DNA of 64,000 nucleotides from Aneurinibacillus uraniidurans (GTDB lineage Bacteria > Bacillota > Bacilli > Aneurinibacillales > Aneurinibacillaceae). The stretch lies in NCBI RefSeq assembly GCF_028471905.1, contig NZ_CP116902.1, forward strand, positions 390,001 to 454,000, in the 5' to 3' direction. Positions 2,722 to 50,467 of the stretch are shown in pieces; the first letter of the stretch is position 1, and the number at the start of each line of letters is the position of its first letter. Both the position numbers and the translations under genes were made by a program. The notes under the pieces are model-generated. The model was not told the origin of the DNA. It saw nothing but the letters and a program-made list of their open reading frames with translations, and did not search any database.

Positions 2722-4422
2722 ATGGCCAAGCAGCAATACGCGCCAAAAAAAGAAGGCAAGATTGTTCCCATTCGTATGGATGCAACATTTTATAATAATC
2801 GTGCGCTCAAATATCTCGATAAGCTTAACTTCCAGAAAGCGCTCCGTTATTTTCGGAAAGCCATTGAACTGGAACCGAACAATCCAGACTATTACTGCAG
2901 TATGGCTGGCGTACTCGCTGAACTGGAAAAGTACGATGAATCAAATCGTATACTCTGGCATGTACTTGAAGAAATTGATTGTAAAATAAATGAATGCTAT
3001 TTTTATCTCGCCAGCAATTATGCTAACTTGCTGGAGTTTGAGTTGGCCGAACAATATGTAGCAAAATATCTCGAACTAGCTCCTGATTCTTTATATACAG
3101 AAGAAGCCGAGGATCTGCTTGACTATATTGATTTTCAGCTTCAATCGATACCGCGAGAGCGTGAAACGGGAGAAAATCAGGAAGTTACCCTTTTGCATGA
3201 TCGTGCTCGCCGCCTGCTAGAAGAAGGACGTTTCTCCGAGGCATCTAAAATACTTATCAAAATTCATACAGAACACCCCGATTTCATTGCTGCGCGTAAT
3301 AATCTGGCGTTATGTTTCTATTATATGGGCCGCTTTGAAAAAGCAATGGATACGATTCTTTCTGTCCTGGAAGAAGAACCGCACAACATACATGCTCTCT
3401 GTAACCTCGCCGTATTTTACTCCCATCTGCGGGACAAAGAGAAACTTCTTGATCTACTTACCCTACTGAAAAAAATTGTGCCGTATCATTTTGATCAATC
3501 CTATAAACTTGCTACAACGCTTGGAATCTTAGGGGAGGATGAAGCAGCATACTTTCTTTTTAGTAAAATGATTGCGCAAACAGGACTGGGAGACGTACAT
3601 CTGCTTCATTATGGTGCAGTAGCTGCTTATAATACCGGCCGCTTTGACGAGGCAGAAAGCCTCTGGAAAAAAATCGAGCGTCTTGATCCTGATGAGTCCA
3701 TTGCCGCCTATTACTTGACTCAGGTGGAACAGAAGCGGAATGGTCAGTCGGCATTGCCAGGGGCTTCCTACCATTACCAAACACCGATTTCCGATGATAT
3801 CCTTCGAATAGAAGCCGCGCGTGAGTTGAGTGAGAAATGTAAGAAAGATCCGCTTATTCGCGCCTCGTTTCTTTGGGCGCTTCGCTTCGGGGATCAAGAC
3901 ACGAAGCTGCAGGTCATACATGCGGCGGAATATTTGCAAGATGACGAGATTGAGGAAGCGCTTCGTCAATTTCTGTTGAATCCAGTAGAGGACGACCATT
4001 TGAAAGAAGCTGTGATCTTGGTGCTTCAGAAGATGGGAGCAGCTGAGCCGTATCGTGCTGTTATGGAAGATCGGGAACATCTTGTACAGGTTAATCCCCA
4101 TGTTCACTCTCTTCCCGTATGGCATGATAAATGGCAGCAGGTTATTGACTGTCTCGAACATCATATGCAAGATCAGTATGATCTGCTCGAACAGCAGGAA
4201 GCACGTGCCCTATGGTTTGACTATCTCGCGCAGGCTTACCCGAATATTCCTGTGATCCGCAAACAGGAGACATGGGCAGCTTCACTGGAGTATGCCGTTG
4301 CACAATTGCATAATCGTAGTGTGACGAAGGAAGAAGTGGCCAGCCGCTATGGTGTTTCGGCGGTCTCACTGACCAAAAATTATCGACTTTTATGCGAAGT
4401 ATGCAGATCATTTACGGAATAA
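2722..4422 (+). CDS. Tetratricopeptide repeat protein (YvcD-like)
   Basis: A 566-residue soluble protein made mostly of TPR helix pairs. The first clear repeat reads NNRALKYLDKLNFQKALRYF; others start near residues 50, 160 and 195. TPRs scaffold protein-protein contacts and the partner is unknown. The last 45 residues contain a helix-turn-helix-like segment (VTKEEVASRYGVSAVSLTKN). The ATG at 2722 is chosen because GGAGGGG lies just upstream; an in-frame ATG at 2680 is possible. No signal peptide or membrane segment. In Bacillus subtilis a TPR gene, yvcD, lies close to trxB, which suggests orthology, but the family assignment is by context. Confidence 0.85.
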   Translation: MAKQQYAPKKEGKIVPIRMDATFYNNRALKYLDKLNFQKALRYFRKAIELEPNNPDYYCSMAGVLAELEKYDESNRILWHVLEEIDCKINECYFYLASNYANLLEFELAEQYVAKYLELAPDSLYTEEAEDLLDYIDFQLQSIPRERETGENQEVTLLHDRARRLLEEGRFSEASKILIKIHTEHPDFIAARNNLALCFYYMGRFEKAMDTILSVLEEEPHNIHALCNLAVFYSHLRDKEKLLDLLTLLKKIVPYHFDQSYKLATTLGILGEDEAAYFLFSKMIAQTGLGDVHLLHYGAVAAYNTGRFDEAESLWKKIERLDPDESIAAYYLTQVEQKRNGQSALPGASYHYQTPISDDILRIEAARELSEKCKKDPLIRASFLWALRFGDQDTKLQVIHAAEYLQDDEIEEALRQFLLNPVEDDHLKEAVILVLQKMGAAEPYRAVMEDREHLVQVNPHVHSLPVWHDKWQQVIDCLEHHMQDQYDLLEQQEARALWFDYLAQAYPNIPVIRKQETWAASLEYAVAQLHNRSVTKEEVASRYGVSAVSLTKNYRLLCEVCRSFTE

Positions 4423-25692: not shown

Positions 25693-25702
25693 GCATGGCT
25701 TG

Positions 25703-25731
25703 GGGAGCGCTTTTACTGCGCTCCCTTTTTG
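25703..25731 (+). terminator. Terminator of rnr
   Basis: A perfect 8-bp stem (gggagcgc with gcgctccc) and ttttt. Confidence 0.93.
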
Positions 25732-25757: not shown

Positions 25758-25804
25758 AGACTGTCTCAAAAGCCAGAACATGGTGAGCAAGACAGTCTTT
25801 TTGC
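25758..25804 (+). terminator. Second terminator in series, shared-sequence type
   Basis: agactgtct pairs with agacagtct 23 nt later and is followed by tttttg. The 5' arm and loop start (agactgtctcaaaagc ... acatgg) recur at 50425, so this may be a mobile or homogenised terminator. Confidence 0.75.
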
Positions 25805-25940
25805 AGAATCGACAACGTTTCGGTTTACAAAAAGACTCTCATCGCCAGAATGAATTTGCTCGGGTAGCCACTGGCTTTTTGGAATCCTGCTCCCTTTATT
25901 TTTTACCTGCATAGCAAAGCTCAGCTTCTTGATATTGCTT

Positions 25941-26205
25941 GATGGTGTTTATCCAAAGTGTGCTAGGAGTCGGGATCGGGTGGGGCAGTGGAACGCCTGT
26001 GCGCGACTCCCTAGCGTAAGGTGGTAGGTGAACGGGCCTTTGCCCACAATGCTTCGATGCAAATACATCCCGGACATTTTTTGTGGGCGAGTTCGCTTGG
26101 CACCTGGAGCGGACAGTCCTCACTTCTCTGTAAGCGTACCGAAGTGACGTGGCCCCGCCCGATCCCGACTCCTCCACTACACGTTGGGAAAATCCAAAAC
26201 CCATC
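25941..26205. repeat. Long imperfect palindrome between rnr and smpB
   Basis: The inner arms 25966-25986 and 26152-26172 are 21 nt each and pair at every position (20 Watson-Crick, one G-U). The pairing continues outward imperfectly: gatggtgtttatcc at 25941 faces the reverse complement of ggaaaatccaaaacccatc ending at 26205. Inside are a gcccacaa/ttgtgggc stem and a tcacttc/gaagtga hairpin. This is either a structured RNA or a MITE-like element; strand is undetermined. The 129-codon minus-strand ORF over it is not credible. Confidence 0.75.
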
Positions 26206-26221
26206 ATGTTCATTTTTATCA

Positions 26222-26247
26222 GTAGGTGTCGTCCTACGCCTTTTTTG
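26222..26247 (+). terminator. Terminator-like hairpin upstream of smpB
   Basis: gtagg pairs with cctac, then gccttttttg. It could end a transcript coming from the palindrome region. The rest of the 612-nt gap between rnr and smpB (25693-26304) holds only the two terminators and the palindrome described separately, plus a TGG TACTAT extended -10 at 26262-26270 that probably drives smpB. Confidence 0.5.
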
Positions 26248-26304
26248 CAAACGACATTTTGTGGTACTATGTAGAGATAGAGCAAAGGAAGAAGGAGACG
26301 GCCT

Positions 26305-50408: not shown

Positions 50409-50425
50409 AAAGCTAGGTGGTTAAG

Positions 50426-50467
50426 ACTGTCTCAAAAGCTATTACATGGCTATTGAGGCAGTTTTTT
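50426..50467 (+). terminator. Terminator of the metH operon, shared-sequence type
   Basis: actgtctcaa (50426-50435) pairs with ttgaggcagt (50453-50462) with one wobble, then ttttt. The 5' part and loop resemble the terminator at 25758. Confidence 0.9.

Follow-up and report, generated by a model that had tools for sequence, protein, structure and literature searches.

The window, a stretch of 64,000 nucleotides of Aneurinibacillus uraniidurans DNA, carries a long imperfect palindrome between rnr and smpB, where the initial annotation had placed it. The two arms of its main stem, P1 (25965-25986 and 26152-26173, forward strand), are 22 nt each, 95% complementary with one G-U, and 165 nt apart. 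RNA folding of 25930-26255 gave -136.6 kcal/mol against a mean of -104.3 kcal/mol for 100 shuffled sequences, none of which folded as low (z = -6.1). The imperfect pairing that extends outward from the arms (tatccaaagtgtgc / actacacgttggga) and the inner stem gcccacaa/ttgtgggc are present as described. Relatives do not conserve the other inner stem proposed, tcacttc/gaagtga; what they conserve at that place is stem P2, in which GTGCGC (25999-26004, forward strand) pairs with GCGTAC (26134-26139). The apical stem P5 and its variable loop occupy 26040-26088 of the same strand (TTGCCCACAA / TTGTGGGC). The conserved RNA core, characterized by covariation and a strand-specific excess of G-U pairs, spans 25972-26166 (forward strand) and scores 203 bits with R1, a covariance model whose source is 32 Aneurinibacillus-group sequences.

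The true extent of the feature is larger than first described. Its left edge is a terminator-like hairpin (25759-25797, forward strand; GACTGTCTCAAAAG...GACAGTC) followed by TTTTT up to 25802, with homologues at both ends of other copies. Next comes the stub of a module that we call B (25803-25819, forward strand), left by a clean deletion between two ACAACGT direct repeats; the junction lies at 25812-25818 and recurs in two further copies, L025a and L029. The following spacer (25820-25941, no strand assigned), which in complete copies stands between B and A, shares 81% identity with that of copy L030. Module A with the outer imperfect palindrome (25942-26193, forward strand) has about 30 dispersed copies at approximately 80-88% identity. 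The window copy thus retains the left hairpin, the B stub, the spacer and module A, and lacks the end hairpin that other copies have on the A side. The terminator-like hairpin noted before at 26222-26247 was found (hairpin proper 26222-26241, then a T run, forward strand); it lies between the element and smpB and is not a homologue of that missing A-side hairpin. In addition, rnr has its own terminator (GGGGAGCGC...GCGCTCCCTTTTT, 25702-25731) upstream of the element, which is therefore not needed for ending rnr transcripts.

The suggestion that the palindrome might belong to a MITE was borne out by its dispersal. In the A. uraniidurans genome (G000), BLAST of 25930-26260 matched 72 places and the covariance model found 91 modules, and the model found at least 150 modules in the sister species, G005. 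The anatomy was read from about 40 copies. A complete element of about 0.7 kb consists of an end hairpin, module B, a spacer of about 100 bp, module A and a second end hairpin, and the majority of the copies in G000 are such two-module elements. Modules A and B are about 72% similar and stand head to head, each pointing outward from the spacer. Element length ranges from about 0.3 to 0.75 kb, and no conserved reading frame was seen. The elements are short, are dispersed in many copies and have no transposase gene, and they carry terminal inverted repeats, in the form of homologous hairpins in G000 and G005 and of CAGCCTGTAGACAAAG ends in two more distant carriers, G204 and G240. The end hairpins of G000 (GAGGCTGTCTCAAAAGC...GACAGCCTC) are terminator-like, mutually inverted and borne by the element; being inverted and type-specific, they were rejected as simple target duplications. 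Solitary hairpins of the same type also exist elsewhere in the genome, and one of them, with the sequence type of the element ends, directly follows a gene at 50424-50466 of the window (GACTGTCTCAAAAGCTATTACATGGCTATTGAGGCAGTTTTTT).

Insertion polymorphism was apparent in a comparison of two 400-kb stretches from G000 and G005: at several syntenic sites, one species has a complete element that is absent from the other. At several of the empty sites, the genes end at a short gap that contains one terminator hairpin, as though the element had replaced a stem-loop. Dispersed copies, end repeats, target duplications, empty sites and the many damaged copies would all be expected of an ordinary MITE, whose palindrome matters only as DNA, for transposase binding or as a cruciform, and whose compensatory changes arise by hairpin-templated correction of a quasi-palindrome. 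We regard this explanation as unlikely, for reasons that lie in the substitution pattern of the stems. At the rnr-smpB site itself, a relative, G006, has neither module and G005 has a differently damaged remnant, which places the insertion before the split of G000 and G005 and shows it decaying in both. Given that the window copy and its counterpart are both damaged, the window copy need not be functional. These two sites also bear on the regulatory RNA that had been proposed for the rnr-SmpB-tmRNA neighbourhood: a structured RNA is supported, and a special tie to rnr or smpB is not. Several other loci decay in both species as well. No two copies within one genome are more than 93.5% identical, which makes recent activity unlikely. 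At one site, the element stands in opposite orientations in G005 (L072) and G000 (L043), either by inversion within the element or by independent insertions into the same terminator. A search of plasmids, phages and viral contigs returned no match to the element.

The flanking genes are convergent at 34 copies, tandem at 28 and divergent at 1, so that the copies lie at gene 3' ends, and terminator-like hairpins bound them. Both facts would suit a bidirectional terminator or a 3'-end mRNA stabilizer that acts in cis, terminating or protecting read-through transcripts. However, the way in which stem-loop-targeting transposons choose their targets accounts for this position (PMC5678879), and termination requires neither a branched fold, nor conserved unpaired motifs, nor sense-strand constraint in both orientations; we consider such a role very improbable.

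Which enzyme moves the element is best seen in G204. There, an RNA element (L200) begins with CAGCCTGTAGACAAAG and is flanked by direct repeats of a terminator stem-loop, and a resident IS1182-family transposon has the same end, with a transposase scoring 491.7 bits (cut-off 270). Several IS1182 copies of this genome lie between direct repeats of whole terminator stem-loops. Like ends and duplicated stem-loops of 25-27 bp were also seen in another four elements, which belong to G240 and G054. The ends of a resident IS1182 transposon thus go together with a duplicated target stem-loop in G204, and in G240 and G054 the ends and the duplications are what was observed. The model for IS1272, a member of the IS1182 family, predicts either replacement of a stem-loop or duplication of the whole stem-loop (PMC5678879). 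As a side observation, G204 holds about 20 IS1182-like copies (among them L206, L210, L213, L222 and L224), and those between repeated stem-loops illustrate clearly how stem-loop duplication looks in nature.

The ends of the window lineage differ from the IS1182 type, and its sites in G000 and G005 look like stem-loop replacement. Searches for PF13751 and PF01610 transposases found none in G005 and fragments only in G000. Another kind of end was seen in single-module copies of the Aneurinibacillus relatives G003, G006 and G008, where the ends resemble those of ISL3-family transposons (GGCTCAA.ATCAAA..TGTGCTTGAC); a clean target duplication of 8 bp, ATAAATAT, flanks one such copy. The search for an ISL3 transposon whose ends are identical to those of the single-module copies found none, and ISL3 as mobilizer of the window lineage was not supported in G000 or G005. 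Around the IS1182 and ISL3 genes, no autonomous transposon carrying the RNA was found. The RNA core therefore appears, from the sequences compared, to occur in more than one kind of transposon end. In G003, at L109, about 100 bp separate an ISL3 transposon (1308-2786) from the remnant of an RNA element (2888-3096), whose right end reads GGCTCAACACCAAAAAATATGCTTGACCG.

The compensatory changes for which the initial annotation had asked are present in relatives, and so are a G-U signature that depends on the strand and a core that is conserved between families of Bacilli. Compensatory changes alone could arise through hairpin-templated DNA repair, and the strand-specific test is therefore decisive. 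In a functional RNA, a change from G-C to G-U is tolerable and one from G-C to A-C is not, while in DNA both represent the same duplex. A first version of the test, on RNAalifold pairs (163:27 and 86:12), was biased because it favoured columns allowing G-U; the corrected effect is smaller and still strong. In the final version, pairs came from folding that excluded G-U, and changes were counted on trees. The five helices common to A and B, which were chosen after module A had been seen, gave 181 changes to G-U against 37 to A-C, compared with 216 G-U-type and 250 A-C-type changes at unpaired positions (Fisher p = 1e-20). Module B alone gave 75:19 (p = 5e-9 against 1:1 and 4e-5 against its own baseline). 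After correction, the excess was kept only in these five helices; the remaining predicted helices do not show it (30:66 in A).

These counts bear directly on the ordinary MITE. Correction of a palindrome is blind to strand, yet the core stems are strongly skewed. The outermost stem, that is, the outer extension of the palindrome, shows no RNA-type constraint (13 G-U against 14 A-C changes), although in a pure DNA repeat it should look like the core, and the core is kept across families whose elements have different ends. Moreover, each of the two modules favours its own outward sense although A is on the strand opposite to B, which makes an effect of DNA strand or replication unlikely. As judged from these substitution patterns, the fold is under selection as RNA in the sense orientation, since it tolerates G-U but not A-C pairs. 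Covariation together with strand-specific wobble pairs marks the module as a putative structured RNA gene. The choice between an RNA and a MITE that had been posed was therefore a false one, because both halves are supported.

Constraint may also persist after insertion. Copies at the same loci in G000 and G005 differ at 52 pairs as Watson-Crick/G-U, at 15 as Watson-Crick/Watson-Crick and at 4 as Watson-Crick/A-C, which suggests that the stems are kept in place. Along with the age of the copies, whose constraint seems to outlast their mobility, this pattern could be taken to mean that the modules are domesticated host regulatory RNA genes, spread by past transposition and now maintained site by site. 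We find this distinctly unlikely. Treatment of the same-site copies as strict orthologues was abandoned, because private variants are common to both copies at only one locus (L038/L099) and most pairs may not be orthologous. The decay of several loci in both species also speaks against host genes, as do a copy number that varies widely and the existence of certain Aneurinibacillus relatives with no match at all.

The RNA is not confined to the genus. R1 matched 37 of 299 Bacilli genomes. Within the genus, an exact core pattern matched A. terranovensis. A second model, R2, built on the matches of R1, found 9 to 127 modules per genome in the carriers examined and 14-127 copies per genome in a set of 12 carriers; a search with R2 of about 380 genomes in other classes of the phylum, under stricter filters, found none. 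Two-sided changes occur in 20 of the 40 pairs of the R1 alignment. In the wide alignment they occur in 36 of 40, and the share of cells that pair is 95.5%, where shuffles reach 62.4%, figures that lean towards the structure as this alignment was fitted to it. Stem P2 is wholly different between groups (UUUGCCAACC/GGUUGGCAA, UUUGGGCUCC/AGCCCAAG and UUCGAGUUCG/CGAACUCGA). The motifs flanking P2 (CUUU, CAGCGGA and GCGGACAG) persist across groups, and this persistence is partly what the model selects for, which is not the case for the covarying stems. In other families, the strand test counted too few changes. In three carriers (G137, G195 and G007), all 12 close module pairs stand head to head, and 7 of the 8 pairs in G137 combine one member from each of two sequence types that are about 37% identical. 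The two-RNA arrangement of A. uraniidurans therefore recurs in distant genomes. Further carriers (e.g. G204, G240 and G006) have mainly single modules.

The earlier statement that the palindrome matches no known RNA family held up: the RNA module had no match in Rfam even at E <= 10, RNA elements at eight related loci had none either, and the sole match was at chance level (13 bits) and outside the palindrome. No described equivalent came up in searches of the literature. The closest known systems are the MITEs of the IS1182 family and IS1272-type elements, which share the CAGCCTGTAGACAAAG ends and the duplication of a whole terminator stem-loop with the copies of G204 and G240, and the replacement-like sites with G000 and G005. 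Unlike them, the present element carries a conserved RNA fold, the window lineage ends in hairpins (GGCTGTCTCAAAAG), and the sister genome has no IS1182 transposase. The single-module copies of the Aneurinibacillus relatives resemble ISL3-family transposons in their ends and, in one copy, in the 8-bp duplication. Stem-loop repeat families such as bcr1 are likewise dispersed, structured, mobile intergenic repeats of Bacilli, a few hundred base pairs long or less. bcr1 is described as restricted to the Bacillus cereus group, with a length of about 150 bp (PMC2267715); judged by this description, the present family differs in spanning several Bacilli families, in its head-to-head modules and in its AGCGGA/AGCGGACAG core. 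Group II introns, the omega RNAs of IS200/IS605 and HEARO also place a structured RNA within a mobile element, but the element described here has no Rfam match and no reverse transcriptase or nuclease gene.

Taken as a whole, the sequences point to a non-autonomous, MITE-like mobile element with a conserved structured RNA as its cargo, a reading to which we assign a probability of roughly 0.7. The window copy would then be a two-RNA form, with B and A head to head and outward from a common spacer, from which B was deleted, and the RNA would measure about 195 nt. The element may enter or replace intrinsic-terminator stem-loops at gene ends by means of a DDE transposase acting in trans. An IS1182-family enzyme is shown by sequence as the mobilizer in one relative lineage and would probably have served the window lineage too, whose own mobilizer appears to have been lost. 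Transcription would run outward from the spacer, where a promoter search gave one weak promoter-like match, about as expected by chance. Our confidence in any particular job of the RNA is much lower than in the RNA-bearing element as such. The likeliest function, although the least certain step, would be that the RNA acts in trans in the service of the element, binding a host or transposase protein through its AGCGGA/AGCGGACAG core, and such binding would raise the copy number or the persistence of the element.

More broadly, and tentatively, this may be a widespread uncatalogued RNA class that travels as cargo of non-autonomous transposons of several unrelated kinds, often with two different RNAs set head to head, and that is selected for a role in transposition or element protection, so that DDE-type elements spread with the assistance of an RNA; we hold this wider proposal to be possible but doubtful. 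A structured RNA that is absent from Rfam and has 9 to about 150 copies in each carrier genome, across several Bacilli families, would rank among the most repeated RNA folds of these bacteria. The element links the study of terminator-targeting transposons with that of structured non-coding RNA, and poses the question of why selection should make a MITE keep its RNA fold while its transposon ends are swapped. Should the RNA aid transposition or persistence, RNA would be serving DNA transposons in a new way; should it work for the host, the modules would form a large unstudied family of regulatory RNAs. The modules can themselves receive other repeats: at two loci of G003, L011 (from about 1602) and L020 (1301-1500), the loop of an RNA module is replaced by a palindromic repeat (GAAGGAAGGGAGGAGGAACTGAGATTTACGG...) with several more copies nearby, which is a repeat nested in a repeat.
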